A stretch of DNA of 64,000 nucleotides from Lysinibacillus sphaericus (GTDB lineage Bacteria > Bacillota > Bacilli > Bacillales_A > Planococcaceae), in the NCBI RefSeq assembly GCF_002982115.1, contig NZ_CP019980.1, positions 3,356,001 through 3,420,000 of the forward strand. The letters are read 5' to 3'. The translations under genes were made by a program, and so were the position numbers. Below the pieces are notes generated by a model. That model worked only from the letters and a program-made list of their open reading frames with translations, did not search any database and had not been told where the DNA came from. Of this stretch, positions 25,388-64,000 are shown piece by piece. How positions within the stretch are numbered: position 1 is the stretch's first letter; each line of letters begins with the position of its first letter.

Positions 25388-26068
25388 TTACCATATATCA
25401 AGATGGTCAAAAGAAACAATGGAAATCGGTTCTTTCGATAACTGCTTGGAACACAAGGCAACGATATGACAATCATCTAAATCAAACAATTGAAAGCTAT
25501 ACTTTTGTGACAGTTGGTTGCTTTCATACAGTTGTATTGTTTCGGGTTGAATGCAAAACGAAAAAGAATCAAGTGGAATAGTCAATCCTTTTCCCTCAGC
25601 CTTTACATAACTTTCTTTCAATGTCCAAAGTTTATAAAAATACTGTATTTGTTTGTCTTTTGGTTGACTTAAAATATCTTGATACTCACTGCTTGTAAAA
25701 TAGGCTTTTGCAATGTCCATCTCTATCATTGCTACTTGTTCTATATCTATTCCAATAGGCGTATCACTTACTGCACATACAACCCAGTCACCTGAATGCG
25801 CCAAATTAAAATGAATATGGTCGAAATTTTGAAGATTAGGCTTACCATATTCATTGATAGTGAAATGAATATGGTCATTTGTCATGCCAAAGTCCCTCTT
25901 CAAAGAATGACGCAGAAGAACTTCTGCCAATATAGAGCGCTTTTTATCTTCATCAAAGTGAAATTTACTTACTTTTTCTTTTCTTTCAGCAGATATCCTT
26001 AGCTCAAATTGTTGGAAAATATCTTGATACGCTTTTTCTGTTATTTTTATTGCATATTTATATATCAT
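25388..26068 (-). CDS. 4'-phosphopantetheinyl transferase, Sfp type
   Basis: 226 aa, the Sfp size. Transfers phosphopantetheine from CoA to the serine of carrier domains. Motifs: NLAHSGDWVVCA, the Mg-binding GIDIEQ, and FYKLWTLKESYVKAEGKGL (W-x-x-K-E). As last gene of the island it should activate the eight carrier domains upstream. The upstream gap to the ABC ATPase is 88 bp. Confidence 0.95.
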   Translation of the reverse strand: MIYKYAIKITEKAYQDIFQQFELRISAERKEKVSKFHFDEDKKRSILAEVLLRHSLKRDFGMTNDHIHFTINEYGKPNLQNFDHIHFNLAHSGDWVVCAVSDTPIGIDIEQVAMIEMDIAKAYFTSSEYQDILSQPKDKQIQYFYKLWTLKESYVKAEGKGLTIPLDSFSFCIQPETIQLYESNQLSQKYSFQLFDLDDCHIVALCSKQLSKEPISIVSFDHLDIW

Positions 26069-26156
26069 TATTGTGCTCCATATAAATTTTAATACTGCTA
26101 GTCTTTGGATTTCACTTTATAGTATAATTTTGCAACAAGAAATACAAAAGCGTAAA

Positions 26157-26960
26157 TTACTTGGCCATTCTCTCTTCATCCTTGTTGCTATAAGTATCGG
26201 TACTTTCCACTATCCATTTCATAATGCTTTCTTCTCTTTCCTTAATATTGTCAACCTTCGCATCAAATTTATTCATTTTCTTAGAAGCGACAATTTTTCC
26301 ATCTACCATAAATAGAACTCTTTCAGTTTTTGCAGCAACTTTTGCATCATGTGTTACCAGCATAACTGTTGTTCCTTTTTTATTGATTTCTGTTAAAAGT
26401 GACATAATCTCTGTCGCAGATTTAGAATCTAATGCGCCTGTCGGTTCATCTCCAAATATAATATCTGGATCATTAATTAATGCCCTACATATCGCGACCC
26501 TTTGTAACTGGCCCCCTGAAGCTTGATTAATATTATTATTTTCAAGCGCTGCAATTCCAGTCATCTCTAGTAATTTTTTTGCTCTTTTATACACTTTAGT
26601 TTTATCTGCATCTTTGGATACAAGCGCAGGGAACATAACATTATCAATTAACGAGAGGTTTTTTAAAAGATTTATATTTTGGAATATAAAACCCATATTA
26701 TTTAAGCGGATCTTCGCTAGATTTTCTTCTTTTAGTTTGCCAATCTCATTCCCTTTAAAAAGTACATCGCCAGAAGAAATTCGGTCCATACCACTTACAT
26801 TATATAAAAGTGTTGATTTTCCACTGCCTGATGGGCCCATTACGGCTACAAATTCGCCCTCTTTAATTTCTAGATTTACATCTTTTAAAATATGCAGTTC
26901 ATTATTTTTTCCTAATTCTACTATTTTGTTAATTCTTGTCGCCTCTAAAATATTATTCAT
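26157..26960 (-). CDS. ABC transporter ATP-binding protein (MacB/FtsE-like)
   Basis: 267 aa. Walker A GPSGSGKST, signature QASGGQLQRVAICRAL, Walker B DIIFGDEPTGALDSKS and H-loop LVTHDAKV are all intact. The type pairs with FtsX-like permeases in peptide-antibiotic export or sensing (Bce/Mac class). It follows the permease gene by 33 bp with GGAGG upstream. Likely role: self-protection against, or export of, the cluster product (inference). Confidence 0.93.
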   Translation of the reverse strand: MNNILEATRINKIVELGKNNELHILKDVNLEIKEGEFVAVMGPSGSGKSTLLYNVSGMDRISSGDVLFKGNEIGKLKEENLAKIRLNNMGFIFQNINLLKNLSLIDNVMFPALVSKDADKTKVYKRAKKLLEMTGIAALENNNINQASGGQLQRVAICRALINDPDIIFGDEPTGALDSKSATEIMSLLTEINKKGTTVMLVTHDAKVAAKTERVLFMVDGKIVASKKMNKFDAKVDNIKEREESIMKWIVESTDTYSNKDEERMAK

Positions 26961-26993
26961 ATCTATTCCTCCATTGCATCGTCTTTCTACTTC

Positions 26994-29403: not shown

Positions 29404-30726
29404 TTAAATTGACTGCTCAGTTGGTATTAGCTCAGTATCTTTTTGTTTTTCCATTTCTCGAATACCTTTAGATTTTGAAACAAATAATGCCGTAATTATT
29501 AGTCCTACTCCAGAAAGAATGATTAAAAAACCAATTCCCCTTGTTTCACCAGTACCTATAATTTTTCCAACAGAATTTGCTAGAACGCCTCCTTCAACTA
29601 ACGCTGGGTTAAATACGTAATCGGCCAGAACACCTGCAATAACGTAAGCAACGACGAAACCTATTTGTGATATTAAAGAAATCAGTCCCCATGCTCTACC
29701 TTGCTTCTCATTGTCTATCGATTTTCGTATTAAAACATCAATACATGTCGTTGCAAATGGTAATGAAGCAAAGAATAAAAATCCGGAAATAATAATAACT
29801 GGGATACTTGTTGTGGCGCCGAATCCTGCCATCGTTATACCTGATACAATGAAACTAACGACCATTACTTTTACAAAATTTCTTTTGATAATTCCTGTAC
29901 CGATTAAAATACTGGATACCATCATACCGCATGCTACAACTGTCTGAAGTATTCCGGTTGTTTTCTCACTCGCAAATGATAAAATCATAGGTTTTGATAG
30001 TACTTGAATAATTCCCATATAGAACATTAAAACGGAAACCAGTACTATAAGAAGCATAACCCCTTTTGATTCAACAATAATTTGCCAGCCTTCTTTTAAA
30101 TCTTTGAAAAAGTCTAAATCTTTTTTCTCCAAAGGCTTTACCGAAAGCGATTTTCTTACAAAAAGAATTGTTGAAACTGTTACAGCAAGTGTCAAAATAT
30201 CAATGATGATAATTAATTCCATACTGTAAAATGCTAAAATTAGACCACCAATAATTGGTGAAATCAAAAATTTAGAAGAGGAAGCAATCCCCACCATACC
30301 ACTTGCCTTTGCATATTCATCCTCTGATAGTAAATCCGTTAGTGTTGCTTTATACGCTGGATCTAATAATGATGCGAAGGCTGAACTAAATCCTACACAA
30401 AGACAGATTTGCCATACTTGAATATTTCCTGTATTCATTAGCACTAATAACAAAACGAGTCCCAACCCTGAGACACAATCACCAATAATCATAAGGAGTC
30501 TTCTGTCAAATCGATCTGCAAGAACTCCTGCAGCCGGACTGAATAAGATCATGGGAAGTAGCGCTGCCATTTCAACCATAGCAACATCCAATGCGGATTT
30601 CGTAAGTTGCCAAACGTATACGCCAAGACCGAAGGCAGTCATACCAGTACCGATATTAGATATCAGCTCCCCCATCCAGATGACCAAGAACTTTTTAAAT
30701 CCTGCATCTGTCTTTACGTCATTCAT
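29404..30726 (-). CDS. MFS transporter (EntS/MFS_3-like)
   Basis: 440 aa with about twelve hydrophobic helices. The cytoplasmic loop GVLADRFDRRLLMIIGD is the MFS signature; SLLDPAYKATLTDLLSEDEYAKASG resembles proton-dependent exporters of siderophores and macrolides. Probably exports the pathway product (inference from position). GGAGG is 9 nt upstream of the ATG. It is separated by about 290 bp from the thioesterase gene, so it may start a second transcript with the ABC genes. Confidence 0.9.
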   Translation of the reverse strand: MNDVKTDAGFKKFLVIWMGELISNIGTGMTAFGLGVYVWQLTKSALDVAMVEMAALLPMILFSPAAGVLADRFDRRLLMIIGDCVSGLGLVLLLVLMNTGNIQVWQICLCVGFSSAFASLLDPAYKATLTDLLSEDEYAKASGMVGIASSSKFLISPIIGGLILAFYSMELIIIIDILTLAVTVSTILFVRKSLSVKPLEKKDLDFFKDLKEGWQIIVESKGVMLLIVLVSVLMFYMGIIQVLSKPMILSFASEKTTGILQTVVACGMMVSSILIGTGIIKRNFVKVMVVSFIVSGITMAGFGATTSIPVIIISGFLFFASLPFATTCIDVLIRKSIDNEKQGRAWGLISLISQIGFVVAYVIAGVLADYVFNPALVEGGVLANSVGKIIGTGETRGIGFLIILSGVGLIITALFVSKSKGIREMEKQKDTELIPTEQSI

Positions 30727-31019: not shown

Positions 31020-31769
31020 CTACCTCACTTTAATTTCTAAGTTAAGAAACTGATTGATGAACGTGACAACTTCCTTTTCCATATTATGAATAAACATATG
31101 CTCTGCATTTTCAATAGAAGTTACATTTAAATCTTGAACAAGATAATCATCCCACATGATCGCTGAACGAATATTCTCTGATTTATCATTTTCTCCCCAT
31201 AACAAATGTGTTTCGATATCAATTTTTTTGTATGGAGCTTTTGCTGAGGATTCTAAAATGCCATAATCAGCGCGAAATATTGGAAGCATAATATTCATTA
31301 ACTCTTTGTCTTTTAATACAGCCTCTGGCATACCACCATAAACCTGTATTTGCTTTATCAAGTCCTCATTACTCAACTTGCTATACTGTTTATTTGCAAA
31401 ACTGGATGGTGCAACAGATGCAGATAATATTAATGTTTTTGGAAGAATTTTTTCTTGATTTTGAAACATTCTTTCTAACAAAAAATATGAAACTACGCCA
31501 CCCATACTATGCCCCAAAAATACGCTTTCTGGGCGAATAATCTTTGATATCTCCTGATAATATAGCGAAATCAGTTCATGAATATCACTAATTAATTCGA
31601 GTTGAGAACCAAAATGTCCAGGAGGATTCGCCACCCATATTTCAACATCCTCCGGCATTGCACGCACAATTTCATTGAATGAGTTGACATAGCCCCCTAG
31701 ATAAGGAAAACAAATTAACTGCCCCTTACTACCTTCTTTGGATTTGAAAAATGTTTTTAGCTCCATCAT
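31020..31769 (-). CDS. Type II thioesterase
   Basis: About 249 aa, stand-alone alpha/beta hydrolase that clears misprimed carrier domains, as GrsT/SrfAD do. Shows ICFPYLGGYVNSF near the N terminus, nucleophile S in VFLGHSMGGVVS and the H in NAEHMFIHN. ATG 31769 has AGGAG 7 nt upstream; an earlier in-frame ATG encloses that site. As no thioesterase is fused to the NRPS, it might also aid release, but editing is the safer reading. Confidence 0.92.
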   Translation of the reverse strand: MMELKTFFKSKEGSKGQLICFPYLGGYVNSFNEIVRAMPEDVEIWVANPPGHFGSQLELISDIHELISLYYQEISKIIRPESVFLGHSMGGVVSYFLLERMFQNQEKILPKTLILSASVAPSSFANKQYSKLSNEDLIKQIQVYGGMPEAVLKDKELMNIMLPIFRADYGILESSAKAPYKKIDIETHLLWGENDKSENIRSAIMWDDYLVQDLNVTSIENAEHMFIHNMEKEVVTFINQFLNLEIKVR

Positions 31770-31797
31770 GATATTTCTCCTATTTTTCAACTAAAAA

Positions 31798-32628
31798 TTA
31801 TGCTCCAATCCCAACATAATCGGGTAACACTTGAAGCTTTTGTTCAATATTTCTCTTCTTCGTAATGAAATGCATAATAACAACAGACACTGCAAAAAAT
31901 GCAATCTGTAATAATTGAACTTGTGCATTAAAATAATATAACTCTAGTCTCGCACCTGATGAAATGAGCCAGAATAATAAAACGTAAAACAGTAGATTTC
32001 CGTTTGTCGCATTAAACATATAACTAATAAATATAAGGAATAACATTAATTGAATAACGTACAATGGAAAAATAGCTGCCAATTCAAATGATGTAATTAC
32101 ATAACCTGGTAATACATAGATGCCGAATATAAGACCTGTTATTACACCCGCTTTTATATTACTGTTATATTTTTTCTGAAGATACGGCATTAAAAATCCG
32201 ATCCAGCCAAGTACTCCACCAAGAATTCCTGCTTCTTCAAACAGATTTTTAACTACTTCTATGACCATTTGCTTAAAAGTTAATGTCATCTCTGGTACAT
32301 CAAAACCAACAGCAATGGAACCGTAATGAATACTACCTACATAAATAAGAAACAAACCGATTATGATTGGAAACCATATCAAATCTTTTTTTCTAGGAAT
32401 AAACTTAGAAAATAGATTTTTTATCGCCTCAAAGCCGCCCATTAACCAATAAACAAATAAACCTGCAATGGATGGCGAATACAAAGCAATCATAACAATT
32501 GGGTTCGTAAAGGACGTTTCACCAAAAAGTTTTGTAAAAAAATCATTGAAAATCATAGATGCTGATGCAAGCCCCCAACATAAGCCAAATGTAATAATTA
32601 AATAAATCGTTAAATATTTATTTTTCAT
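31798..32628 (-). CDS. CPBP-like membrane protein with altered catalytic motifs
   Basis: 276 aa, about eight hydrophobic helices. Helix order and the stretch GWIGFLMPYLQKKY resemble CPBP (CAAX-like) intramembrane proteases. Those carry EExxxR and a later H; here EE is separated from GWIGF by an insertion (FEEAGILGGVLGWIGF), the R is I, and the usual WGIWHLP region reads FGIYVLP, without His. Probably non-catalytic. CPBP members near peptide clusters often give self-immunity (family knowledge). Its ATG overlaps the NRPS stop. Confidence 0.65.
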   Translation of the reverse strand: MKNKYLTIYLIITFGLCWGLASASMIFNDFFTKLFGETSFTNPIVMIALYSPSIAGLFVYWLMGGFEAIKNLFSKFIPRKKDLIWFPIIIGLFLIYVGSIHYGSIAVGFDVPEMTLTFKQMVIEVVKNLFEEAGILGGVLGWIGFLMPYLQKKYNSNIKAGVITGLIFGIYVLPGYVITSFELAAIFPLYVIQLMLFLIFISYMFNATNGNLLFYVLLFWLISSGARLELYYFNAQVQLLQIAFFAVSVVIMHFITKKRNIEQKLQVLPDYVGIGA

Positions 32629-35600
32629 TGTGATACCCTCCCTTGTTCGCTTCTTTTTTCTACAATAGTTCTAAATTTTTTCTCATCAATTCCAATAACA
32701 TCTTCAATTTCAATGTAAAGGTGGTCACTATCATAATTTAATGTTACAGACATACGGGCAAGGCTGTTTTCAGTATTGTTATGACTAAATGCTTGTTTCT
32801 CCTCCGCTTTAACAAATCCTTGGAAATTATAGAGGATGAAATTACAGTACTGTTTATCATTGAAATAGTATTTTCTAAGGAGTTGATTTAATTTTGGATA
32901 GTCCTTACTAAATCGTTCTTCCCCAAGTAATGCGAGATAATTGATGGAATGATCTTTACAAAGTTGAATGGCCGTTTCAACCGATGTTCTATTTCCTTTT
33001 TCACTAATAATCGGTACAATATCTAAAAACTCGCCTACGCTATTATAAAAATCCTTCCCCTGATAACTTCTTGCATACTCCAGCACTGCAAAGGGAATGA
33101 CTTCTGTATTTGTGTAATCTCTTAAAATATCAGATACAAAATCGAATGCATACCACCAAATATCTAAATGCTTTTTATCTGATAAAGGAATGATAATTTC
33201 TATATTATTTCGCAAGGCTGTATTACGCTTTGGTTGTGCCATTACCTTACGGTTATTTTCACTCCACTTCACCAAATTAAATTTTTCAATTAGCTCCTTC
33301 TCACTAATCCCTAATGGCCCTTCGTTTAGCACATCAACATACTCTTTAAAACTTCGAATAGTATTTTCCATGCTCGTTGTACCTTTTAACCCCTGTTCAA
33401 TCTGAGTTTTGATAATCTCGGCACTCATACCATCGAATATCAAATGATCGGCACCCCAGATAATGAGATGTCTCGTATCACTTTCTTTTAGTACACACAT
33501 TCGCCATAGTAGTTCATTATTTGAGTAGGTTCTTAAAAGTATTTCTTCACTAAGCTTATTGATGATAGTTGTTTTTACACTCTCGGTATACATAGATATA
33601 TCTACATATGTAAGATAATTACTCATAATGGTTTCTAATTTGAGTACTTCATGTTCACACCATTTCTTTTCGCCATCGGTTTCTACCAATGAACAACGCA
33701 GCAACTGATTGTTACTTATTACGTCTGCAATAGTATTCTTTATTCTATTTTTCGAAATTATTCCATCGAAATGGTTTGTAAACCCACTATAGTTCGACCC
33801 CTTTGACATATGACCTTTCTGAATTGGGGAAAGAGAAAACGCCATTCTCGTATCAGATGCAGTAATAATGTCAGAGAGACCTTCAATACGTGCAATAACA
33901 TTCTTTACGAGACTAGTAATTTGTTTCGCATTTAATTCTATATCTTTGCTTGTCCTTATTTTATCAATCATAGGCGGCGATACTTCCGCAAGCGGTTCTA
34001 TGGATGCAGCAATTTTTTCTGCTGTCTGGTACTGGAAAATTTCATTAATTTTGAGGTCCACACCTTTGTTAGACAATGCCTTCACTAAAGCAATGGCTTT
34101 AATTGATTGACCACCGAAATGAAAGAAGTTGTCTTTCAATCCAAATTCCTTAACATCCAGTATCATCTGCATTGTTTTCAGAACCGTTTTTTCTAAAGTT
34201 GTTCTTGGCTCATCCTGCACCATCACTTTTTGAGAATATTGTTCTGCGTTTACAAGCGCTTTTCGATCAACTTTTCCGCTAAAGTTGAGAGGAAATTCTT
34301 TTAAGACCACAAATTTAGATGGAATCATATATTCAGGTAATCTATTATTTAAATGATTGCGCACATACTCTCCATCATATTTTTCTATATGATGATTTTC
34401 ATTCACCGTATAGTAAGCCGTCATATATAGCGTGTCTAGATGATCCCTTTCGGCAGTAACAATGACATTTTTTATTCCATCGATATTTTTTATATGTCGC
34501 TCAACTTCACCAAGCTCGACTCTGAATCCTCTTAGTTTTATCTGAAAATCTTTGCGACCTAAAAATACAAGTTGGCCTCTGCTGTTCCACATCACTTTAT
34601 CACCGGTACAGTACACTCTTTTACCGCCTACTGCATCAAGGGTAATAAATTTTTCATTTGTAAGGTCTTCTCTATTTAGATACCCTACTCCTACCCCATC
34701 TCCACCTAAACATAATTCACCTGCAACGTTCATCGGTACCAGCTGTTTCTTTTCGTCCACAACATAAACTGTTGTATTCGATATTGGAATACCAATAGGA
34801 ATAATGGAAACATCCTCTATATCATCTATCGGGTAATATGTTGCAAATACTGCCGATTCGCTTGGACCATAGGCATTAATAAGCTTCCCCTTGCCAATTT
34901 GATTTACTGTTTGTTGCGCATGTGTGAGCGAAATCTGCTCTCCCGCTACAATGATTTTACGTACATTCTTCAAAAATTCGACTTTTCCGTCAACTAACAT
35001 ATGGAATAAAGCGGTTGAAATACAAAAAACACTAATTTCTTTCTTCTCTATAAATTCCGCTAGCAAAGGAATATCAAGGGAGGTCTCTCTTGGAATAATG
35101 ACAAGATTGGCACCATTCAGTAAAGCGCCATAAATATCAAATACAGAACAGTCAAATACATAATTAGATATCTGCATAATTCGGTCATTTTCGTTAATAT
35201 CGATATAGTTCGTATTCTTCACGACACGCACGACATTTTTATGCTTAATTAATGTTCCTTTCGGTTTTCCTGTAGAACCGGACGTATAGATAACATAAAT
35301 CAGATCATCACTATTGAAATATTGAGATGTATAGGTGGATTCTATGCCCATATCGTGTTCTCGATTGAGTGTATTTTCATCTTTATCGATTAGGAATTTT
35401 TCAATATTTACACTTATTTTTTCTTCCAAAGAATAATCTGTAACGATTACTTTGCTGTGACAATCCTCTAGAATATAATCAATTCTCTCTTGAGGAAATT
35501 TAGGATCAATCGGCACATAGACAGCGCCAAGTTTCATAATGCCCAACATACTGACAATTTGCATATAACCGCGGTCTAAAAGTATGGCCACCTTATCTTG

Positions 35601-49132: not shown

Positions 49133-49609
49133 TTAGCCAATTACCCATATTCCACCAATAACAATAGATAATACGGTTATAAAGGTCTGATATGCAATAT
49201 CCATTATGATATTTGCAATGCTGTCCGCGTCTGCCTTTTTATTCATTTTCATAACATTCCAGTGTGACCAAAGACCACTAATTCCATATATATACATAGC
49301 TACGATTGTTCCTAACCAGAACCCATCTCTAAACCAAATACACATAACGCCCATAACACCTAGACCCAATTGTGAAAACCCGTATTTTATCTGGAACGGC
49401 CCACCTGGCCAACCGACCATTTTGGCATTTTGTTTTGCAAAAATCATATTACTTAATAATCCTGTAATACCTAAAAGTCCAAATGTTACTACGAACTGAT
49501 GAAGTAAAATTACCGAGCAGATCAATTGAGGGTCAGACGGAAATCCCTTCATATATAAGTCGATAACAGCTGTAACAATTCCTAATCCCCATAACACTAA
49601 AAAGAACAT
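49133..49609 (-). CDS. Four-helix membrane protein, DUF6790-like
   Basis: 158 aa with four hydrophobic helices and a conserved-looking central GWPGGPFQIKYGFSQLG. I associate this pattern with DUF6790, function unknown, but from memory only. AGGAG is 8 nt upstream. It lies within the biosynthetic operon between the aminotransferase protein and the largest NRPS, 34-46 bp from each. Possible roles are immunity or membrane tethering of the synthase (inference). Confidence 0.7.
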   Translation of the reverse strand: MFFLVLWGLGIVTAVIDLYMKGFPSDPQLICSVILLHQFVVTFGLLGITGLLSNMIFAKQNAKMVGWPGGPFQIKYGFSQLGLGVMGVMCIWFRDGFWLGTIVAMYIYGISGLWSHWNVMKMNKKADADSIANIIMDIAYQTFITVLSIVIGGIWVIG

Positions 49610-54468: not shown

Positions 54469-54483
54469 ATATAACACCTCTGA

Positions 54484-57400
54484 CTATATCGTTAACTTAT
54501 CAATTTCAGATAATAAGTCATCTATGTTTTCGGATTGTTCTTCTAATTCACCCATATTTTCATTTTCAAGAATTAGAACTTCACTTAATAAATAATCAGA
54601 AAGTTTTACGATGGTTGGATAATTGAAAAATACAGAGACATTGACATCGATACCTAGCAATTTATTAATCGCTGTTCGCATAGAGAATATCATTAAAGAA
54701 TCTGCACCTTGTTCTTGGAATGCTTTATCTATGGATAGTACTTGGTTATGATCAAAGCCCATAATTTTCCCGCAAATACTTTGCAGTTTTTCAATTAGGA
54801 GTTCATTTTGGCCTTCACCTGATAAACTCATAAGCGTTTCCAAGAAATTGTCCTTTTCATCTTGAACTATATCCACATGTAGGTCCTTTTCAGACACTAA
54901 TTTGGATAGGAATTCTGTCTTGCCTGCTGCAGTTTCCAAAGATTTTACTAGGGTATTCCATTCTATATCGGCAATTACCAGATTCTCATATGGTTGATCC
55001 ATAAAATCATTAATAATGCTTTGTCCCTGGCCTTTTGAAAAAGTTTTCATACCCATTCTTGCCATCGTACTCGATATCGCATCATTATCTGCTGCCATCC
55101 CACTTTCATTCCATGGTCCCCAGCAGAAAGTATAACCAGGAAGCTTGTTCATGTTCATATATGTTGCAAATGAATTCATAAAATGATTGGCAGCAGCATA
55201 GTTGCCTTGTCCCATATTTCCAATAACACTCGTGATAGAGGAAAGCATCATGAAGAAATCCAATGTTTCCTTGTCAATTGCATTGAAAACATTAAGCGTT
55301 CCAACAACTTTTGGATTCATAACCTTTTCAAAATCCTCCCAATTGAGGTCAATCAACATCTTATCGTTTAACACACCTGCTGCATGAACGACGCCTCTAA
55401 TAGGAGGCATCGTAAATTGAATGTCATCCAGCGCTTTTATCAGACTTTCATCATTACATACATCCGCATGGACAATCTTTACTTGCACTGCTTTGTCTAT
55501 CAATTTTTGAATCGCTACTTTGGCATGTTCACTTGGTTCACGTCTGCTTATTAAAATAAGGTTTTTAGCACCTGCATTTACAAGTTGTTCAGCATAAGCA
55601 AGACCCAATGCTCCTGTTCCACCTGTAATTAAATAAGAAGCTTCTTCTTTTAATACAATTTTCTTATTTTTTTCTAACCCTTTTTTCAAATAATCCGCAT
55701 GAGCAATTAATCTTCCTACATAACGTTCGTTTTCTCTGAAGCAAACTTCCTGTACACTATCCCCTAATACTTCATGGATAAAATCACTATTTTCATAGAA
55801 AGTTATTTCATCCGTATCAATGATGCCACCAAAAATTTCAGGATATTCTATACTCATTACTTTTGCTAATCCCCAGACCATTGATCCTGATAAATTTAGT
55901 TTTTTCTCATGACGAAGCTTTTGCACATCTTTGGTCACGATTTTAATTTTGCTACCTTGTGTGTAACCCTCTTCATTCATAACTTGAACCAAATAGTGTA
56001 ATGCTTTAATTGCTCTATAATTCACCTTATTATTCGCTAGATTCGGAACACTATCCTTAGTAGTACAATAAATAATATTTAAGTTTTTCTTCCCGCTGTC
56101 TTTGCATACATCTGCAAGAAGCTTCGACCACTCTTCTTTATTGTCCTGATTGATCGTATAATCATGGGTATTTTTCTTTAGGAATTCATCTCCATGTAGT
56201 ACACATATTGTGTTTAAATGGTGTTTCTCCATATTTTCTTTTAAACTTGCTGCCGCAATTGCCTCATCTGCAATCAGAAGGTACTGTTTATTGACTGGCA
56301 ACTCCTCTAATTTTCTAATGGCATCTGTTTGCACCCAGTCTGTATGGTAATACAATTTGTTTGCACTACTCATTTCTTGTAATAAACTTTCGCTTTCTGT
56401 AATTTTAGCCATGAGGTTATCTATTTTCATTAATACTTCGCCTTTTTCGTTATATACAATAACGTCCGCATACGTAATATCATTTTTTACAGTTGATTTT
56501 GAATAACACCATAACTGATCGGATTCTCGATAGTTAAACGTCAATTTCTCTAAATAGTATGGAATAACTGTTTTATTGCCATCTTCATTAACATTTGTAC
56601 GTTCTTTTAATTTTTCTAAAACTAAGGCAATACCTGTTTGGAATATGGAGTCAATTGTTCCTGGGTAGAGTACATAATCTTTAAAGTATGGAATGGTTTT
56701 TAAAGGCTCTACCACACAGACACATTCATCTTCTCCGTAGCTAATACGCTTAATCCGTTGGAAACCTTCTCCTAATTCAAAACCAGATTTACTCATAAAA
56801 TAGTAGATACTATTTTCAATATTTTCTTCATAGGACAGGCGTTTATAATCATCCATATTTGCTGTCATTTCTGAAAACTCATATTCATCTTGCATACATA
56901 CATTGCCTTTAGCATGCATTAGCCATTTATCATATTTAGAGTTAAAATCTCTACTGACAATATTAAATTTGTAATCATTGTCTTCTTTTTCTAAACAAAT
57001 TTGCACCTGTTTTTCTTCATCATCTGTTGCAGCTAATGGTACCCTGAAATCTACTTTACTTAACACGCAACTTTTAGCATTTCCAATTTCTTTCACAGCC
57101 GAAAGTATCATGGCCATATGGGCTGCTGCTGGAGAAATAGCTGTTTTGAAAATTACATGTTCTCTCATAAAGTAAGGTTCCAATGCAGTAAATTTCCTTT
57201 GGAATACTACAGCGTCACTCATTGATGGAAGATCAATTCTTTGGCCTAGAATATTATGATAATCTTCAGCATTGATACTCTCTGATGCTCTATCGTATTT
57301 CAAATCCATCCAATATTTGTTCTTCTCATATGGATAGTTAGGAAGTTTTACTTTGTTCCAATTCGTTTTACCAGCGAACGTAATATTGCTCCAATCCACA

Positions 57401-60400
57401 TCTACACCCGTTACATAAAGCAATGCAATTTCATTTGCCAGTTGTACTTTATCTTCCTTCTTCATGTTTAAAGTAGATGCAATGACTCTTTCATCTTCAA
57501 AAATTAATTTACAAAGTGCTGCCAACACTCTATTACTTCCTACTTCTAGCAATAAATAGTTTTCTTTTTTATCAATGCTTGTAACCGCTCCAAAGAAGTC
57601 AACTTTTTCTCTAATATGACTAGTCCAATAGTCGCCATCAAGAATTTGACCTTCTTCTAATTCTTTGGCGTAGAGCGACGAAACAAATTTTACCTTAGAT
57701 TCTTTATAATCCAATTCTTTTGCTATTAAATGGAAGTCGTCTAATATTGGCTCCATTAGCATAGAGTGAAAAGCATGAGATACCTTTAATTCTTGTACAC
57801 GCATGCCTTCCATCTTTGCCTTCTCAACCACTTTTTCTATATCTTCCGCCATTCCAGAAATTACACAAGTTTCTTCAGCATTGTGTGCCGCAATACATAC
57901 CGTCTCTTGGAATCCAGTAAGAAGTTTTTGTACTTTCGCTTTATCTGCAAAAACAGTTGCCATCTTACCTTTTCCAGGTGCAGCATCCATCAGTCTTCCT
58001 CTTATTGAAACTAGTTTAATAGCATCTTCCAGTGTCATAATCCCTGCTACAACTGCTGCTGGATATTCACCAATGCTATGTCCCATCACTACCTCTGGTT
58101 TAACACCATAGCTCTCCCACAGTTTGTATAAAGCATATTCCACCGCAAAGATTAATGGTTGCGCATAAACCGTTTTTTCAATCACTTGTTCCTCTGCATT
58201 TTCCCCATATATTAAATCGGCAATGGATTTTAATAAATACGGTTTAAACAATCGATCACAAGTGTCAAATGCCTGTTTAAAGACAGCATTAGAATCATAG
58301 AGTAGTTTCCCCATATTGAGATACTGTGAGCCTTGTCCAGTAAACATAAAGACAACTTTTCTATCTTTTTGCATCAACTGGTGCTTATCTATATTTTCAA
58401 AGACCCCTTCTGCATACCCATCTTTTAGATAGCTTTCTAGTCTCTCAGCAATCATTTTTCTGTTACTGCCACATACAGCAAATCGGTATTCTAAATCCGC
58501 TCTTCCTAGATTGGCTGTATAAATAATATCTTCTAATTCATTGTCCGAACTATTTGCTATCAAATTATAGTACTGTTCAATTAGTTCATTTAATGATTTC
58601 TTGCTTTTTGCTGAAATTTTAAGTATATAATCTATGCCATCTTGGATGTTTGTTTCGTTTTTACCGAAATCCTCATTTTTGTATTCTTCGATAATCGTAT
58701 GGGCATTTGACCCACCAAATCCAAAGCCATTAATAGCTGCAGCTCTTAAGCCATCCTCTTTTTTCCACGATGCATGTTCGCTTATCACTTCTACATTTGC
58801 ACCTTCCCAGTCAATAAACGGATTCGGTGTATGGAAGTGAAGATTTGCAGGAATCATATTATGCTTCATGGATAATAAAACTTTAATTATTGATGCTACC
58901 CCTGCAGCAGCCTCCAAATGACCAATATTAGATTTTACAGAACCTATCTTTAATAGATTATTTTTACTTCTGTTCTTTCCGTAAGTTGCACCAACTGCAT
59001 GAACTTCGATTGGATCTCCAAGTTTTGTGCCTGTTCCATGCATTTCTACAAAATCAACATCATGAGGATCCATACTGGCATGCATCAAAGTTTTTTCAAT
59101 CAATTTTTCTTGCGCTTCCCCATTTGGTGCAGTTAGGCCGTTACTCTTACCATCCTGATTAATTCCAGTTCCTCTGATAATACCTAGAATTTCATCTTGA
59201 TCTTTAATAGCGTCAGATAATTTTTTCAGTATAAGGACGCCACCGCCTTCTCCACGCCCATAACCATTTGCCGCTTCATCAAATGCTTTACTATGACCAT
59301 CTACTGATGTCGCTTGCAGTTTCGAAAAACCGATATTAGTCGTTGGAGATTCCATTAAGTTAACGCCAGCTACAATTTGCATATCGGCTTCTCCGGCCTG
59401 CATTGCGGTACAGGCTAAATGCAACGCCGAAAGCGTGGACGAGCATGCGGTATCAACTGTAATACATGGTCCTTCAAATCCAAACGTATAAGATACCCTT
59501 CCACATGCAGTACTCATACAGCTTCCTGTCAGAGCATATGCACCAATAGTTGATAATTCTCCTGAATATAATTGCGCTAGATTGTATTCATTATTAGACA
59601 TGCCTACATATACGCCGGTGTTCGATCCGTTGTATTTAGTGATATCCATATTTGCATTTTCAAAAGCTTCCCATGTGAGCTCTAATAGCATTCTTTGTTG
59701 GGGATCAAGGGCAGCTGCTTCTTTTGGAGATATATTGAAAAATCCTGCATCAAATTCATCAATATTGATATTTAAAAAACCACCCTTTTTGCAATACATT
59801 TTTCCCGGAACGGTTTTATCTTCATCATAATACTTTTCAATTTCCCATCTATTTTCAGGAACATCACATACGCCATCTACTCCATTTACAAGCAAATTCC
59901 AGTACTCATCAATACTATTAGCACCACCTGGAAAGCGACAACTCATTCCAACGATTGCTATTTTATCTTGCATATGCTGCTCTTCGTTCATGTTCCCTAG
60001 ACTCCTTTGCTTCTCTTCTAAATTAACAAGTGAATAAATATGTTCAGACAAATCATATATAGTGAAATACTTAAAAATATCAGCAACAAGAATATTTACG
60101 TTAAATTCTTTATTTAAATTTTCAATAAACGATGGGATATTAATAGATACAATGCCATATTCAGAAAAAGGAATGTCATGCGCTAATACTTTTACATCGA
60201 AACGACTCTCAATATATGTCACAATTTTCTTCGCAATAGAATTTCGAGAGTATCTCGTTTTTTCAGTATTAACCATTTGGCTTTTCTTACTATAATTCAA
60301 GTTATTTAGTATTGTTTCATATGTGCCAGCATTATATTTTTCAGTTAACCCACGTCGAAATGCTTTGCCACTGTTTGTTTTAGGAATATCTTCAACGGGT

Positions 60401-61977
60401 ACTACCTCACTAATAGTCAGTCCCATTTTTTCAAAAACCATTGAAATAATGTCGTTTTTAAAGTCCTTAAATTCTTCTATATCCTTGTTATTTTCAAAGT
60501 CCATTTGTGTTTTTATAAAAACAATCACTTTCTCATTGTCATTTTCCTGCTTTGTTCCATTGCATACTGCACACTGTTGGTGCTTTGTATTATGCAAATG
60601 TTTATTTATTAGTTCTTCAATCTGTGCGCACGAGACTTTTTTCCCGTTGGCTACAACAAGTTCTTTTTCTCTTCCAATAATGATAAGATTGTTATCTTGA
60701 ATAAATCCTATATCCCCTGTACATAACCATTTCTCTTCAAAAAATACTTTATCGGTCGCTTCTGAATCTTGATAATAACCTGCTGTAATACAAGGACCAC
60801 TTGCACAAATTTGTCCTAAATGCCCTTCTGGGAGCTCTTGGAAGTTATCATCGCGGATACTAAGTTGTACAGTTTCCAAAGGCGTACCCATTTCAAGAAA
60901 TACATTATCTGCTGTTTCGCCATCCGCTAATTCCCTACACTGCACTTTGTCACCAATCACAAGCTTATCGTTTGTAATTTCGAATGTTCTAGCATGCTTT
61001 CCTAATCTATTTGCGGTTAACATAATTGTCGCTTCAGTCAATCCATATAGCGGATAAACCTTATCTATAGAAAACCCATAAGCATTTACTTCGTTACAGA
61101 ATTCTTTGTATAATGCTTGACTAACCGACTCCCCACCTAAAAACATGCTATCTACACAGGACAAATCCCATTTAAAGTTTTTCTCCGAATTCATATAAAC
61201 ATTATTAAAATGCTTCAATGCGAATGGCAGTGAACCAATTCTAGTTGCGCGATATTCATTAATGGTTTCCGCCCAAATTAACGGCTGATTCATGTACAAT
61301 TTAGTAGAAAGCAGGCATTGATCTGCGCCCGCCATTAATGGTACAAGGTGGAATATGACTAAACCATAACAATGTGTTAATGGTGTCCATGATAAAAACT
61401 TATCATTTTCATCTATTGCATAATGTTTAACAAAGCCATATACGTTAGCAGCCACATTGGATTTGCTAATCATTACCCCTTTTGGCGTGCCCGTTGTTCC
61501 AGAAGAATATAAAATATATAGGATATCTTCTGGTGAAGTTTGATACTCTACATTCAGATTATTCGGACACTTTAAAATCTCAGTATAGAAGTCCTGAAGG
61601 CATAGCACTTTCCCTTTGTCCTTATCCTGTTCACTATCACTGACGATAATTGGATGAACCGACTTTTCCAATACATGTGTTAAAAGACTATCGACATTAC
61701 TATTTTTACTTGCATCAATCGGAACAGCGATATAGCCTCCTATTGCACACGCCCAAAATGAATATAAAAAGAGCTCTAGATTTTCACACCGAATAATGAC
61801 TTCTGCATTTCTGCTAACACCTTGCTTTTTAAATATTTCAGAAACATAAAAACTTCTATTCCATAGTTCTCTGTATGAAATAAATTTTTTATCCTCTTTT
61901 GAAAGGACAATTGTAATTCCTTTATCTGTTTTACTAAGTTTTTTTAGTGCTCCTAATATATCATCTGTTTTTTTCAT
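54484..61977 (-). CDS. Loading PKS: fatty acyl ligase-ACP-KS-AT-DH-KR-ACP (2497 aa)
   Basis: AL (1-545; YSSGTTGTPKG, the WTPLTHCYGLVIFHLVPLMAG pattern in part as in MycA; K538 in NSGKAFRR) adenylates a fatty acid for the adjoining ACP (575-650; S611 in GIVSI). KS (670-1100; C845 in TACSSTL); AT (1205-1510; S1301 in GHSIGE, HAFH 1401-1404, malonyl-type); DH (1575-1870; H1607, with K in place of the Gly of HxxxGxxxxP, and D1776-Q1780); KR (1880-2340; TGGTGALG, S2247, Y2260; LND where B-type KRs have LDD); ACP (2390-2465; S2427 in GADSL). An acidic C-terminal tail is probably a docking element. Expected output: 2-enoyl-ACP. GGGGAGGG precedes the ATG; about 72 bp follow ETF alpha. Confidence 0.95.
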   Translation of the reverse strand: MKKTDDILGALKKLSKTDKGITIVLSKEDKKFISYRELWNRSFYVSEIFKKQGVSRNAEVIIRCENLELFLYSFWACAIGGYIAVPIDASKNSNVDSLLTHVLEKSVHPIIVSDSEQDKDKGKVLCLQDFYTEILKCPNNLNVEYQTSPEDILYILYSSGTTGTPKGVMISKSNVAANVYGFVKHYAIDENDKFLSWTPLTHCYGLVIFHLVPLMAGADQCLLSTKLYMNQPLIWAETINEYRATRIGSLPFALKHFNNVYMNSEKNFKWDLSCVDSMFLGGESVSQALYKEFCNEVNAYGFSIDKVYPLYGLTEATIMLTANRLGKHARTFEITNDKLVIGDKVQCRELADGETADNVFLEMGTPLETVQLSIRDDNFQELPEGHLGQICASGPCITAGYYQDSEATDKVFFEEKWLCTGDIGFIQDNNLIIIGREKELVVANGKKVSCAQIEELINKHLHNTKHQQCAVCNGTKQENDNEKVIVFIKTQMDFENNKDIEEFKDFKNDIISMVFEKMGLTISEVVPVEDIPKTNSGKAFRRGLTEKYNAGTYETILNNLNYSKKSQMVNTEKTRYSRNSIAKKIVTYIESRFDVKVLAHDIPFSEYGIVSINIPSFIENLNKEFNVNILVADIFKYFTIYDLSEHIYSLVNLEEKQRSLGNMNEEQHMQDKIAIVGMSCRFPGGANSIDEYWNLLVNGVDGVCDVPENRWEIEKYYDEDKTVPGKMYCKKGGFLNINIDEFDAGFFNISPKEAAALDPQQRMLLELTWEAFENANMDITKYNGSNTGVYVGMSNNEYNLAQLYSGELSTIGAYALTGSCMSTACGRVSYTFGFEGPCITVDTACSSTLSALHLACTAMQAGEADMQIVAGVNLMESPTTNIGFSKLQATSVDGHSKAFDEAANGYGRGEGGGVLILKKLSDAIKDQDEILGIIRGTGINQDGKSNGLTAPNGEAQEKLIEKTLMHASMDPHDVDFVEMHGTGTKLGDPIEVHAVGATYGKNRSKNNLLKIGSVKSNIGHLEAAAGVASIIKVLLSMKHNMIPANLHFHTPNPFIDWEGANVEVISEHASWKKEDGLRAAAINGFGFGGSNAHTIIEEYKNEDFGKNETNIQDGIDYILKISAKSKKSLNELIEQYYNLIANSSDNELEDIIYTANLGRADLEYRFAVCGSNRKMIAERLESYLKDGYAEGVFENIDKHQLMQKDRKVVFMFTGQGSQYLNMGKLLYDSNAVFKQAFDTCDRLFKPYLLKSIADLIYGENAEEQVIEKTVYAQPLIFAVEYALYKLWESYGVKPEVVMGHSIGEYPAAVVAGIMTLEDAIKLVSIRGRLMDAAPGKGKMATVFADKAKVQKLLTGFQETVCIAAHNAEETCVISGMAEDIEKVVEKAKMEGMRVQELKVSHAFHSMLMEPILDDFHLIAKELDYKESKVKFVSSLYAKELEEGQILDGDYWTSHIREKVDFFGAVTSIDKKENYLLLEVGSNRVLAALCKLIFEDERVIASTLNMKKEDKVQLANEIALLYVTGVDVDWSNITFAGKTNWNKVKLPNYPYEKNKYWMDLKYDRASESINAEDYHNILGQRIDLPSMSDAVVFQRKFTALEPYFMREHVIFKTAISPAAAHMAMILSAVKEIGNAKSCVLSKVDFRVPLAATDDEEKQVQICLEKEDNDYKFNIVSRDFNSKYDKWLMHAKGNVCMQDEYEFSEMTANMDDYKRLSYEENIENSIYYFMSKSGFELGEGFQRIKRISYGEDECVCVVEPLKTIPYFKDYVLYPGTIDSIFQTGIALVLEKLKERTNVNEDGNKTVIPYYLEKLTFNYRESDQLWCYSKSTVKNDITYADVIVYNEKGEVLMKIDNLMAKITESESLLQEMSSANKLYYHTDWVQTDAIRKLEELPVNKQYLLIADEAIAAASLKENMEKHHLNTICVLHGDEFLKKNTHDYTINQDNKEEWSKLLADVCKDSGKKNLNIIYCTTKDSVPNLANNKVNYRAIKALHYLVQVMNEEGYTQGSKIKIVTKDVQKLRHEKKLNLSGSMVWGLAKVMSIEYPEIFGGIIDTDEITFYENSDFIHEVLGDSVQEVCFRENERYVGRLIAHADYLKKGLEKNKKIVLKEEASYLITGGTGALGLAYAEQLVNAGAKNLILISRREPSEHAKVAIQKLIDKAVQVKIVHADVCNDESLIKALDDIQFTMPPIRGVVHAAGVLNDKMLIDLNWEDFEKVMNPKVVGTLNVFNAIDKETLDFFMMLSSITSVIGNMGQGNYAAANHFMNSFATYMNMNKLPGYTFCWGPWNESGMAADNDAISSTMARMGMKTFSKGQGQSIINDFMDQPYENLVIADIEWNTLVKSLETAAGKTEFLSKLVSEKDLHVDIVQDEKDNFLETLMSLSGEGQNELLIEKLQSICGKIMGFDHNQVLSIDKAFQEQGADSLMIFSMRTAINKLLGIDVNVSVFFNYPTIVKLSDYLLSEVLILENENMGELEEQSENIDDLLSEIDKLTI

Positions 61978-62049: not shown

Positions 62050-63024
62050 CTATCCTTCAGCCATTTTTTCTAATTCAGCCAGTACTGCCTCCACATCATC
62101 TACGATAGCGTAATCCGCATATTCGAATATGGGTGCATTTTTATCTTTATTGATGGCAACGATTATTTCAGCATTTTTAACGCCAATCATATGTTGGCTA
62201 GCGCCCGATACACCGAATCCTACATAAATAGGTGAAGCCAGCATTTTCCCAGACTGACCAATCATTCTCTCTTTTTCAATATATCCCGCTTCAACGACTG
62301 CTCGGGTTCCAACTATTCCAACATGTAGTTTATTTGCAATTTGGCAAATTTTTTCAAAAGTATCTTGATTTTTAACTCCTCTACCAATACAAAAAACTTT
62401 ATTTAAATTGTTCATCTCTTTCTTGTCGAACTTTTCTATTCGCTCTAGAACACCCCATGAATTGGACAACTTCTCCATATCATCATCGTATGTAACTTCC
62501 TCTATCATTCCACTACATTGCCCAGCCTTCATTTGTTTTGCAAAGATGTCTTTTTTCACAGTTGCGATGATAAATTCGCCATTAGAACAATTGTTTTTGG
62601 CAATTGTCACACTATTAAAGGCAGTTCTCAAAAAAGACAGTTCGTTATTTTCATCAAATTGAATATCAGTACAACCTGCTATAAGCCCGACCTCAAATCT
62701 GGCAGATAATATCGATGCCGTTATTTTTCCATTGCTAGATTCCGGAACCAATATGACTTTTGGGATGCGTGTCTTTATCATATTTGAGATTATATTTGTA
62801 AAATATGTCATATCAAATGGCTCGTTTTGTCTACAGATCACTATATTGTCTGCTCCATATTGAAAGAACTTATCAAGTTGCTCACTATCCTTATGTCCAA
62901 CACATAATACTGTTACCTTATAGTTGCATTGATTACTGAGACTACTAGCTTTTGTGATGACCTGTAATATATTTTCATCGTCGTATTCTTGAAAATCACA
63001 TATGATAACAATTTCTTTTTCCAT
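62050..63024 (-). CDS. etfA: Electron transfer flavoprotein alpha subunit
   Basis: 324 aa. N-terminal domain as in ETF alpha, and the C-terminal FAD domain with GTRAVVEAGYI, MIGQSGKMLASPIYVGFGVSGA (in part), QHMIGVKNAEIIVAINKD and APIFEYADYAIV. Carries electrons from an acyl-CoA dehydrogenase to the quinone pool in beta-oxidation. Here, directly after ETF beta and an acyl-CoA dehydrogenase and ahead of a fatty-acid-loading PKS, it is more likely dedicated to oxidising a substrate of this pathway (inference). Confidence 0.93.
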   Translation of the reverse strand: MEKEIVIICDFQEYDDENILQVITKASSLSNQCNYKVTVLCVGHKDSEQLDKFFQYGADNIVICRQNEPFDMTYFTNIISNMIKTRIPKVILVPESSNGKITASILSARFEVGLIAGCTDIQFDENNELSFLRTAFNSVTIAKNNCSNGEFIIATVKKDIFAKQMKAGQCSGMIEEVTYDDDMEKLSNSWGVLERIEKFDKKEMNNLNKVFCIGRGVKNQDTFEKICQIANKLHVGIVGTRAVVEAGYIEKERMIGQSGKMLASPIYVGFGVSGASQHMIGVKNAEIIVAINKDKNAPIFEYADYAIVDDVEAVLAELEKMAEG

Positions 63025-63047
63025 TCAACGTTCATCCTTCATGCAGG

Positions 63048-63818
63048 TTATCGTTTACTATTGTGTGCCTTATCTGTTACTAAGTTATAGATTAAAATCG
63101 CTTTTTCTTGTGCCGTTTCTTCTATAAATAGCTTTTTCTGTTTTGCTTCTTTTTGAACATGCCATTCTTTCACCTTTACACTAGCAAAACCACACTTTTC
63201 TACATCAACAGCTAAATCAGTAGCATTCCATACAAGGATCTCTTTTTTTCTTGCTTTTTTTAATGCTAGTAAATTGATTAAAGGCTGCGTAACTACATAA
63301 TCGTAAAAAGAAATAACAGCGGGTGGTTTCAATCTCCCAATAATTGTTTCAGTGTCTTTTACTTGTTTTAGCTGAATTGCTGAAGCCTCATTCCCTAAAA
63401 TCTCAGCTATATCAGTTAAACAATAATAGTTAAGACGTTCTCCTATGCCATATACTGCTTGTCCAACTTCTCCATCACTACTTCGTCTTCCACATGCTAC
63501 AAAATCCACATCTTCTATTTTTTTGATTGCCTGTACTAAAATGTATGAAGTAGCGACTGTATCCGAACCTTCGAATAGCTCATCATTTAATAGAATGGCT
63601 TTATCTGCTCCTAAAGCAATAGCCTTTTGAAGCAATCCTTTTGTACTGTGATTACCCATACAAAGACAGATAATTGTGCAATCAATCGATTTTTTTAATT
63701 CTATAAATTGTTGTAATGCATATAAGTCATATGGATTTATAATAAAGTCCTCTGTTCGTAATTCATTTGGAAACATCTCTTCAGCTTTGATTGGTTTTAA
63801 ACATACTACAACTTTCAT
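63048..63818 (-). CDS. etfB: Electron transfer flavoprotein beta subunit
   Basis: 256 aa. Opens MKVVVCLKPIK; INPYDLYALQQFIELK and GADKAILLNDELFEGSDTVATSYIL (in part) follow the ETF beta fold, and GRRSSDGEVGQ is the nucleotide-binding segment. ATG 63818 has AAGGAG 5 nt upstream; a GTG six bases earlier is inside that site. Partner of ETF alpha, 23 bp downstream. Confidence 0.92.
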   Translation of the reverse strand: MKVVVCLKPIKAEEMFPNELRTEDFIINPYDLYALQQFIELKKSIDCTIICLCMGNHSTKGLLQKAIALGADKAILLNDELFEGSDTVATSYILVQAIKKIEDVDFVACGRRSSDGEVGQAVYGIGERLNYYCLTDIAEILGNEASAIQLKQVKDTETIIGRLKPPAVISFYDYVVTQPLINLLALKKARKKEILVWNATDLAVDVEKCGFASVKVKEWHVQKEAKQKKLFIEETAQEKAILIYNLVTDKAHNSKR

Positions 63819-63830
63819 GAGCACTCCTTA

Positions 63831-64000
63831 TCACATATATCTTGCATTGGCCATATTATAAATTGTATTTTTTTGCATTTCATTTGTGCCTGAATAAATA
63901 CTGCTTGCCAGGGCATCCCTTAGCTCTCGTTCCATTTCATACTCTTTTGTATATCCATATGCACCAAAAATTTGCATTGCATCTCTACACGTTTTTATGT
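63831..64000 (-). CDS. Acyl-CoA dehydrogenase, C-terminal end (gene runs off the right edge)
   Basis: The last 55 or so codons are present, ending in TGA at 63831. The translation contains DAMQIFGAYGYTKEYEMER, then RDALASSIYSGTNEMQKNTI, the classical FAD-contacting end of the family. 13 bp separate it from ETF beta. It would desaturate an acyl chain, feeding electrons to the adjacent ETF. Whether the substrate is acyl-CoA or acyl-ACP cannot be seen here. Confidence 0.88.
   Translation of the reverse strand, partial: IKTCRDAMQIFGAYGYTKEYEMERELRDALASSIYSGTNEMQKNTIYNMANARYM

Follow-up and report, generated by a model that had tools for sequence, protein, structure and literature searches.

The window analysed here is a 64,000-nucleotide stretch of the Lysinibacillus sphaericus genome (G000:C1:3356001-3420000; genome 4.68 Mb, single contig), and it carries a polyketide synthase/nonribosomal peptide synthetase (PKS/NRPS) cluster that is probably complete and combines known parts in a new, provisionally novel, variant. 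We listed open reading frames, scanned the proteins with Pfam (E 0.001) and NCBIfam models, and read motifs from the translations. Relatives were sampled from 32 genomes of the genus, 398 genomes of the class, and several loci from metagenome-assembled genomes (MAGs) and other records. The features are collected in Table 1, in which positions right of 64000 are extended window coordinates (L004 position + 60000).

Table 1. Genes and domains of the cluster and of the adjoining com locus (ACP and PCP, acyl and peptidyl carrier proteins; DH, dehydratase; KR, ketoreductase; ETF, electron transfer flavoprotein; ProRS, prolyl-tRNA synthetase)
Feature	Position	Strand	Evidence or remark
Sfp/AusB-type phosphopantetheinyl transferase (PPTase)	25388..26068	-	PF01648 3e-20; 96% in G029, G013
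ABC exporter ATPase (LolD/MacB type)	26157..26960	-	PF00005 5.5e-30; 98.5% in G013
FtsX-type permease, 784 aa	26994..29348	-	PF02687 6.8e-24, two stretches; 99% in G013
MFS efflux transporter	29404..30726	-	PF07690 3.5e-37; 99% in G013
Stand-alone thioesterase (TE)	31020..31790	-	PF00975 7.6e-30; 51% in G427
Polytopic membrane protein, ~7 hydrophobic segments (simple hydropathy)	31798..32628	-	no Pfam match at 0.001; 44% in G427
NRPS3: KS-AT linker-degenerate AT-ACP-C3-A3-PCP-terminal C-like	32625-38390	-	
Terminal condensation-like domain, DHLIFDG; candidate release/cyclisation domain	32628..33983	-	PF00668 partial 1.6e-11
A3, code DCFCIAAVF	34272..35732	-	PF00501 1.8e-81
C3, HHIISDQ	35799..37094	-	Pfam, motif
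Degenerate AT of split KS4 module, without GHSxG or catalytic His	37401..38138	-	
NRPS2: C1-A1-PCP-KS3-AT3-ACP-C2-A2-PCP-KS4	38407-49098	-	
KS4, Cys-His-His intact	38569..39687	-	Pfam, motif
A2 core, code DIFLLGMIW	40513..41550	-	Pfam, code
C2, HHIIADG	41611..42915	-	Pfam, motif
AT3, GHSIG/HAFH, malonyl-type	43528..44337	-	PF00698 1.7e-41
KS3	44794..45876	-	Pfam, motif
A1, code DITNFGVMW	46249..47721	-	Pfam, code
C1, predicted acceptor of beta-amino acyl starter	47809..49086	-	Pfam, motif
DUF6790 small membrane protein	49133..49609	-	PF20589 2e-20
ACP-aminotransferase protein	49656-51650	-	
Class III aminotransferase domain, MycA type	49770..50855	-	PF00202 5e-57; PDB 6kfm 4e-148
ACP of aminotransferase module	51360..51557	-	PF00550 1.3e-10
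PKS2: KS2-AT2	51631-54477	-	
AT2: GHSVG, R-x-R position F-V-T, YPYH	51838..52785	-	PF00698 2.9e-48; predicted hydroxymalonyl-ACP specific
KS2	53245..54369	-	Pfam, motif
PKS1: loader-ACP-KS1-AT1-DH-KR-ACP	54484-61977	-	
AT1 (R-V-Q, HAFH, malonyl type)-DH-KR-ACP, module 1	54589..58353	-	Pfam, motif alignment
KS1	58831..59967	-	Pfam, motif
FAAL-like loading ligase + loading ACP	60043..61896	-	PF00501 7.2e-53; loading ACP without separate Pfam stretch, carrier Ser motif read
ETF alpha	62050..63024	-	PF00766, PF01012; 49-60% in G425-G427
ETF beta	63048..63824	-	PF01012 1.9e-24
Acyl-CoA dehydrogenase	63831-64994 (3' end within window)	-	
FkbH	64918-66009	-	family domain 1.9e-76; NCBIfam 257 bits vs cut-off 147
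Discrete ACP	66006-66320	-	
3-Hydroxyacyl-CoA dehydrogenase (HCDH)	66271-67116	-	
ComA-like, 215 aa	67446-68093	-	response regulator/GerE
ComP-like, 748 aa	68062-70308	-	HisKA_3/HATPase; ~9 N-terminal hydrophobic segments
ComX-like, 61 aa	70313-70498	-	ends YWRP; no family model match
ComQ-like, 289 aa	70502-71371	-	PF00348
ProRS	72304-73740	-	flanking gene

The order of synthesis reads from right to left: PKS1, PKS2, the ACP-aminotransferase protein, the DUF6790 gene, NRPS2, and NRPS3. In total, the cluster holds a fatty acyl-AMP ligase (FAAL)-like loader, four ketosynthase (KS) domains, four acyltransferase (AT) domains of which one is dead, three adenylation (A) domains, three condensation (C) domains plus a terminal C-like domain, eight carriers, and an iturin-type aminotransferase. 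Whole-protein Pfam E-values for the KS, AT, C, and A domains were ~1e-39 to 1e-191 in uninterrupted minus-strand frames; Cys-His-His is kept in 4/4 KS domains and the phosphopantetheine Ser in 8/8 carriers, including the loading ACP and the first PKS ACPs, and the C motifs read HHIIADG (C1 and C2), HHIISDQ (C3), and DHLIFDG (terminal C-like domain). The nearest solved relative of the aminotransferase is that of MycA (PDB 6kfm, E 4e-148), and a PF00550 carrier lies in the same protein. These scans bore out, with all frames open, the domain inventory of an original prediction made from the window alone, including its acid:AMP ligase start, extra DH/KR module, MycA-like aminotransferase, and alternation of three NRPS modules with two that contain a KS. 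Its extent of 25388-64000 did not hold at the right end, where the island continues past the window edge on the same strand, with biosynthetic genes up to 67116 and adjoining com genes up to 71371. The synthesis block has 33-38% GC per 2 kb versus 34-42% on its left.

FkbH, a discrete ACP, HCDH, and acyl-CoA dehydrogenase are all present together across this edge, which is the gene set of a hydroxymalonyl-ACP cassette. Their frames overlap or nearly touch, and the two ETF genes lie between the cassette and PKS1. A zwittermicin-type gene set makes hydroxymalonyl-ACP from an ACP-bound C3 unit of glycolysis (PMC4207774, in excerpt). The cluster-borne ETF is the predicted electron acceptor of the acyl-CoA dehydrogenase in the second oxidation. 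Details of the zwittermicin extender chemistry and gene set are in part general background, as is the additional O-methyltransferase carried by methoxymalonyl-ACP cassettes. Pfam scans of the cluster genes on both sides of 64000 showed no O-methyltransferase family, and a methoxymalonyl extender was rejected on this ground; weak methyltransferase matches of HCDH (9e-6 and 9e-4) were read as Rossmann-fold cross-matches.

From the genes, domains, motifs, and their co-conservation, we infer substrates, order of chemistry, release, and regulation as follows. The FAAL-like ligase would load a carboxylic acid, probably fatty, onto the ACP, and module 1 would add malonyl and then reduce and dehydrate to give a 2-enoyl chain. 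Hydroxymalonyl-ACP would come from the FkbH-ACP-dehydrogenase-acyl-CoA dehydrogenase cassette and the ETF that belongs to it; AT2 would take hydroxymalonyl from the dedicated ACP for addition by module 2, and the MycA-type aminotransferase would convert the beta-ketone to an amine, giving a 3-amino-2-hydroxy-4-enoyl chain. This chain would pass through NRPS module A1, a malonyl module, NRPS module A2 (perhaps for Gly), a KS module whose dead AT is served in trans, and the last NRPS module A3, and would be released by the terminal C-like domain and/or the TE, possibly as a tetramic acid or as a macrolactam closed on the free beta-amine. Export of the product and/or protection of the producer would fall to the ABC-FtsX and MFS genes, and the comQXPA-like system next door would probably switch the cluster on at high density. 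We lean slightly toward this overall pathway, including a 3-amino-2-hydroxy-4-enoyl starter made without a monooxygenase; no monooxygenase family appeared in the Pfam scans of the cluster proteins. The plain 3-amino-4-enoyl chain predicted earlier is probably wrong, since the FkbH cassette beyond 64000 and the AT2 motif point to a hydroxymalonyl extender; the cassette beyond 64000 could not be seen in the earlier prediction.

The cluster has close and distant relatives. G029, a second species of the genus, has the complete gene set, PPTase through ComQ, with 91-100% identity in the 23 proteins compared, far beyond chance, and a MAG fragment titled uncultured Bacillus (L009) is 98-100% identical over the aminotransferase end, DUF6790, and the NRPS2 start. 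A Paenibacillaceae MAG (G427; SVDS01000016.1) also has the full assembly line, but its genes are arranged differently and the loader domain is missing; NRPS2 (57% over 3563 aa) and NRPS3 (44% over 1912 aa) are collinear. In a Clostridia MAG (G425; CALGKJ010000057.1) whose contig ends inside NRPS2, PKS1 including the loader is 74% identical. Few parts of the cluster family are as conserved as the DUF6790 protein (49133-49609; 100% in G029, 89% in G425, 57% in G427). The G427 locus (L008 12006-16616) also holds a discrete GYSLG AT, a PF14535 ligase, and IorAB-like genes, with no fused loader. The ligase and IorAB-like genes would presumably suit an arylacetyl starter, which suggests that the G427 starter differs and is perhaps arylacetyl. 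The aminotransferase protein was found in 3/32 genus genomes (E 1e-60). The class-wide search was made with PKS2 and detected relatives (E <=1e-150) in 21 of the 398 genomes, only G029 and G366 exceeding 50% identity besides the query. Searches of plasmids found no cluster relative.

In 8/8 loci read, from ~6 independent lineages, the KS-AT-aminotransferase module is adjoined by the cassette or a variant of it. The cassette with FkbH lies beside the module in our genome and in G029, G023, G374, G426, and G427. In G366, whose genome has no FkbH at E 1e-20, a 403-aa protein resembling seryl-tRNA synthetase (SerRS; L067 10534-11745) is found instead near ACP, HCDH, and acyl-CoA dehydrogenase, and is a candidate that would suit aminomalonyl-ACP supply. 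The association is weakened by G425, in which FkbH is reduced to a remnant of 32 residues (lying between ACP and acyl-CoA dehydrogenase, with the rest of the cassette present), and by cyanobacterial aminotransferase relatives (L010 and L011, 44%) that have neither cassette nor AT2-type KS-AT in 21 kb. The G425 remnant (G425:C57 upstream part, L086) may be real or an assembly fault, and this genome has FkbH homologues elsewhere; another record, L012, is a weak match (27% over 115 residues). Separately, the aminotransferase PKS/NRPS cluster of G023 (G023:C6; L021, L019, L020), another species of the genus, is a different one, with a FkbH cassette of its own and a discrete AT.

ATs for ACP-tethered extenders have been proposed to be recognisable by hydrophobic residues at R-x-R, ahead of the YASH motif, and GYSxG is found in the ZmaA and ZmaF ATs, with Leu or Phe after the Ser in the ZmaA and FkbA ATs (PMC4207774, in excerpt). 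AT2 reads F-V-T at R-x-R, the first residue being hydrophobic and the third Thr, with YPYH, and AT1 reads R-V-Q with HAFH. We aligned 49 AT stretches, including 5 duplicates, and compared the 44 distinct ones: 8 from aminotransferase modules, 7 from module 1, 2 AT3s, 4 discrete ATs, and 23 others from the class search whose substrates are not known. A hydrophobic first residue with no charge at either R position occurred in 8/8 aminotransferase-module ATs and in 0/7 module-1 ATs, 0/2 AT3s, and 0/4 discrete ATs, the near-identical pairs own/G029 and G426/G427 leaving ~6 independent cases among the 8 and ~5 among the 7. In a tree of 45 ATs, seven AT2s formed one clade (support 100/99), and the G374 AT branched outside it together with the ATs of G181 and G191. 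Several observations, however, speak against hydroxymalonyl specificity of AT2. The same pattern occurs in 5/23 other same-class ATs, the first R position of which is Phe in 14/23 and hydrophobic in 19/23; the G181 and G191 ATs share the motif and are nearest in the tree, yet no aminotransferase domain or cassette lies beside them (40 and 35 kb read), only the carrier part matching the aminotransferase protein. AT3 (G-A-T) is likewise uncharged, and AT2 has GHSVG, not the GYSFG of ZmaA. AT2 also scores higher against CurL (210 bits) than against ZmaA (152 bits), and AT1 reaches 161 bits against ZmaA; thus, ZmaA similarity does not single out AT2. As read from the alignment, the R-x-R motif separates modules inside this cluster family and is not diagnostic in general, and co-occurrence with the cassette is the stronger argument for hydroxymalonyl. 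The discrete GYSxG ATs of G023, G366, G426, and G427 have a charged R-x-R, and all four loci are without a match to the loader domain, so for these ATs a starter role is as likely as one in ACP-tethered extender supply.

The AT following KS4 bears on two alternative explanations. GHSxG is replaced by GEGIA in our genome and G029 and by GTGIT in G427, and ~150 residues including the catalytic His are missing in all three, while KS4 and its ACP (37143-37331) appear intact. Because this AT is dead and Pfam AT matches in the genome number four (AT1, AT2, AT3, and a FabD-like 318-aa frame), the KS4 module, as we read its domains, must be served in trans by AT1, AT2, AT3, or FabD, or else pass the chain on. 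With the AT of the second interposed PKS module dead, the second of the two unreduced malonyl units predicted earlier becomes tentative. The need of KS4 for some loader could be turned into a different scheme, in which module 2 uses malonyl-CoA to make a plain 3-amino-4-enoyl fatty acid and hydroxymalonyl goes to the AT-less KS4 or to the AT3 module. The uncharged R-x-R of AT3, the malonyl-like GHSVG of AT2, and the recurrence of the AT2 motif in other ATs would all fit. We regard this scheme as unlikely, because no discrete AT is left among the genome matches to bring hydroxymalonyl to KS4, AT3 carries the malonyl HAFH motif, and in G023, G366, and G374, for which no collinear NRPS2/NRPS3 pair was observed, the aminotransferase module still has the cassette beside it. 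The dead AT, together with the loss of the synthesis block in another genome of the genus (G013; see below), might alternatively indicate a decaying, silent cluster. All compared frames are nevertheless open and 91-100% identical in G029, and since G427 shows the same defect in this AT, it would be a feature of the cluster family; we consider silence of this kind improbable.

Hydroxymalonyl addition by module 2 is also compatible with another starter, an aromatic or keto acid, which would make the product a beta-amino acid peptide of the Adda type instead of a lipopeptide. The best solved matches of the loader are 6ulx (222 bits), which we take to be the keto acid-selecting StsA, and 4r0m (McyG, 176 bits), presumably for an aryl starter, followed by FAAL-type proteins (<=150 bits), and the relative G427 has no loader domain and carries the ligase and IorAB-like genes whose presumed function was given above. 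Against this, NCBIfam ranks fatty acyl-AMP ligase (242 bits) above amino-acid adenylation (146 bits), both under the family cut-offs, and the stretch after YGLTEAT aligns with 3kxw, which we take to be a Legionella FAAL, broken only by gaps of 1-2 residues. Of the 398 same-class genomes, 43 have loader relatives, which, apart from our own and G029, are 28-33% identical and not informative for the substrate. An aromatic or keto starter is therefore somewhat unlikely in our judgement, and a fatty acid is the likely substrate; of the fatty-acid loading predicted earlier, the ligase and ACP start stood, whereas the fatty substrate is likely only, solved matches favouring keto or aryl selectors. 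The same start, and an aminotransferase closest to MycA in the PDB, could suggest an iturin/mycosubtilin family member that gained PKS modules. Members of the iturin family use a single large ligase-ACP-KS-ACP-aminotransferase-C-A protein with a trans AT. Here the proteins are separate, the KS modules have cis-ATs, the only discrete AT is FabD-like, the gene order and the later modules are different, and what the relatives have in common is the AT2/cassette core, not a MycA-type protein. Plain iturin membership was rejected on this architecture, and derivation from that family is highly improbable.

Nine-residue A-domain codes were read against a general reference. The A1 code, DITNFGVMW, is identical in G427; A2 reads DIFLLGMIW versus DIFAIGVIW in G427, and A3 DCFCIAAVF versus DAMAIGGVI. 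Only the A2 code resembles a known code, presumably that for Gly, and we take the A3 code to have an aromatic look. Pfam scans of the cluster proteins gave no extra condensation-type stretch able to be an epimerization (E) domain. The terminal C-like domain is 36% identical to that of G427, and its AlphaFold model (pLDDT 38, two sequences) was of too low confidence for use. Ring closure on the free beta-amine could take place through this domain; alternatively, the beta-keto-acyl amide next to A3 could yield a tetramic acid. The gene of the polytopic membrane protein overlaps the NRPS stop, and the FtsX permease is the presumed partner of the ABC ATPase, with a putative role in export or self-protection.

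Directly upstream of the cluster, four adjacent same-strand genes in the order Q-X-P-A, with the expected sizes and domains, form a comQXPA-like locus. A census gives 286-309 aa for ComQ and 196-245 aa for ComA, and reports the ComP-ComA overlap for the non-subtilis clade as well as comQXPA loci in Lysinibacillus strains (PMC4008528, in excerpt). ComX-like frames of four genomes conserve the N-terminal part and the Trp and vary in the tail (ends YWRP, YWRA, YWRA, and FWRP). The com genes are adjacent to the cluster and conserved in G029, a position from which we would expect ComA to control the cluster at high density, probably as part of comQXPA. Sequence scans offer little for this expectation: a ComA-box scan with a general consensus over 20 kb of L004 found best sites with 3 mismatches, and these, 8 scattered sites versus 3.68 expected (2/200 shuffles as high), were not used; one lies in the comA-cassette gap (L004:7263). 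A promoter scan was no better than shuffles (4 vs 3.2). A terminator-like hairpin follows comA (L004:7360-7328), and a separate promoter may therefore be needed for the synthesis genes.

The site also varies naturally. ProRS was matched in 31 genus genomes, and 30 loci were read, G020 being readable for only ~350 bases. Com genes lie downstream of ProRS (96-100% identical) in 5/30 (G000, G013, G021, G027, and G029), and 24/30 have none of the query genes within 1.5 kb. G013 (G013:C87, L066 4728-16188) keeps ComX, ComP, ComA, MFS, FtsX, ABC, and PPTase at 75-99%. It has no match from HCDH through TE, our 30799-67198 (36.4 kb) being replaced by ~149 nt between flanks that align at 89-90%, and its ComQ is a remnant with stops. 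G013 would thus be a receptor-plus-transporter non-producer genotype. We read its state as loss of the synthesis block because the ComQ remnant is still present, gain in the other two genomes being the alternative. In the 20 kb read for G027 (L064 15263-16323) and for G021 (L065 14649-15709), ComQ (81-82%) and a ComX-like frame (70%) are intact, and nothing matched ComP, ComA, or the cluster. Taking these loci together, we tentatively propose, stopping just short of favouring it, a Firmicutes pathway family in which an aminotransferase module would be supplied with hydroxymalonyl-ACP and so form 3-amino-2-hydroxy acyl units without an oxygenase (in G366, aminomalonyl-ACP would give a 2,3-diamino unit). 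Within the genus studied here, the family would stand under a dedicated comQXPA, with stepwise social decay in relatives, one keeping receptor, regulator, and transporters without signal enzyme or synthesis and two keeping only signal genes.

Alpha-hydroxy-beta-amino acids are valued pharmacophores, as in bestatin-like units. If the proposal is true, the hydroxyl is set via the extender unit, so that no oxygenase is needed and a swappable module is added; such a route would suit anaerobes, and relatives occur in Clostridia and Paenibacillaceae records. With producer, receptor-plus-transporter-only, and signal-only forms of a single site, the loss of quorum-controlled public goods would become testable, an unusual regulatory and evolutionary setting alongside a testable chemical claim.

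Literature searches, which left most subscription journals uncovered, gave little that is comparable: hydroxymalonyl-ACP with aminotransferase and polyketide returned an actinomycete genome as the sole match, and hydroxymalonyl with aminotransferase, nonribosomal, and Bacillus returned none. Among the matches listed (titles and abstract starts), none described such a cluster in Lysinibacillus cluster mining or linked comQXPA to PKS/NRPS genes. Like Bacillus comQXPA (PMC4008528, in excerpt), the locus has the known gene order and sizes, a ComX-like Trp near the end, and a ComP-ComA overlap, but here it lies directly beside a PKS/NRPS cluster, a setting absent from those excerpts. The cluster resembles mycosubtilin/iturin MycA/ItuA in its acid-AMP ligase and ACP start and in a class III aminotransferase beside an ACP that would give a beta-amino acyl chain, and it differs in the extra KS-AT-DH-KR module, the cis-ATs, the hydroxymalonyl cassette, and the separate aminotransferase protein, as well as in alternating KS and NRPS modules and three amino-acid modules versus seven in iturin (PMC4219810, in excerpt). 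The iturin likeness drawn by the original prediction thus holds for the start and the aminotransferase and ends beyond the aminotransferase step. In cyanobacteria, 3-amino-2-hydroxy acyl residues are ascribed to an aminotransferase and monooxygenase pair (PMC4219810 and PMC13252402, in excerpt). As in puwainaphycin (PMC4219810) and floridanemamide/tychonamide (PMC13252402), PKS and aminotransferase are predicted here to form such a residue, but a hydroxymalonyl cassette stands in place of the monooxygenase domain. With zwittermicin A (PMC4207774, in excerpt) the cluster shares the FkbH-type/HCDH/acyl-CoA dehydrogenase/ACP supply and an AT with a hydrophobic residue at R-x-R; unlike zwittermicin A and the ZmaA AT, it joins this supply to an aminotransferase module and a cluster-borne ETF, and its AT2 carries GHSVG and YPYH, not GYSFG and GAAH.

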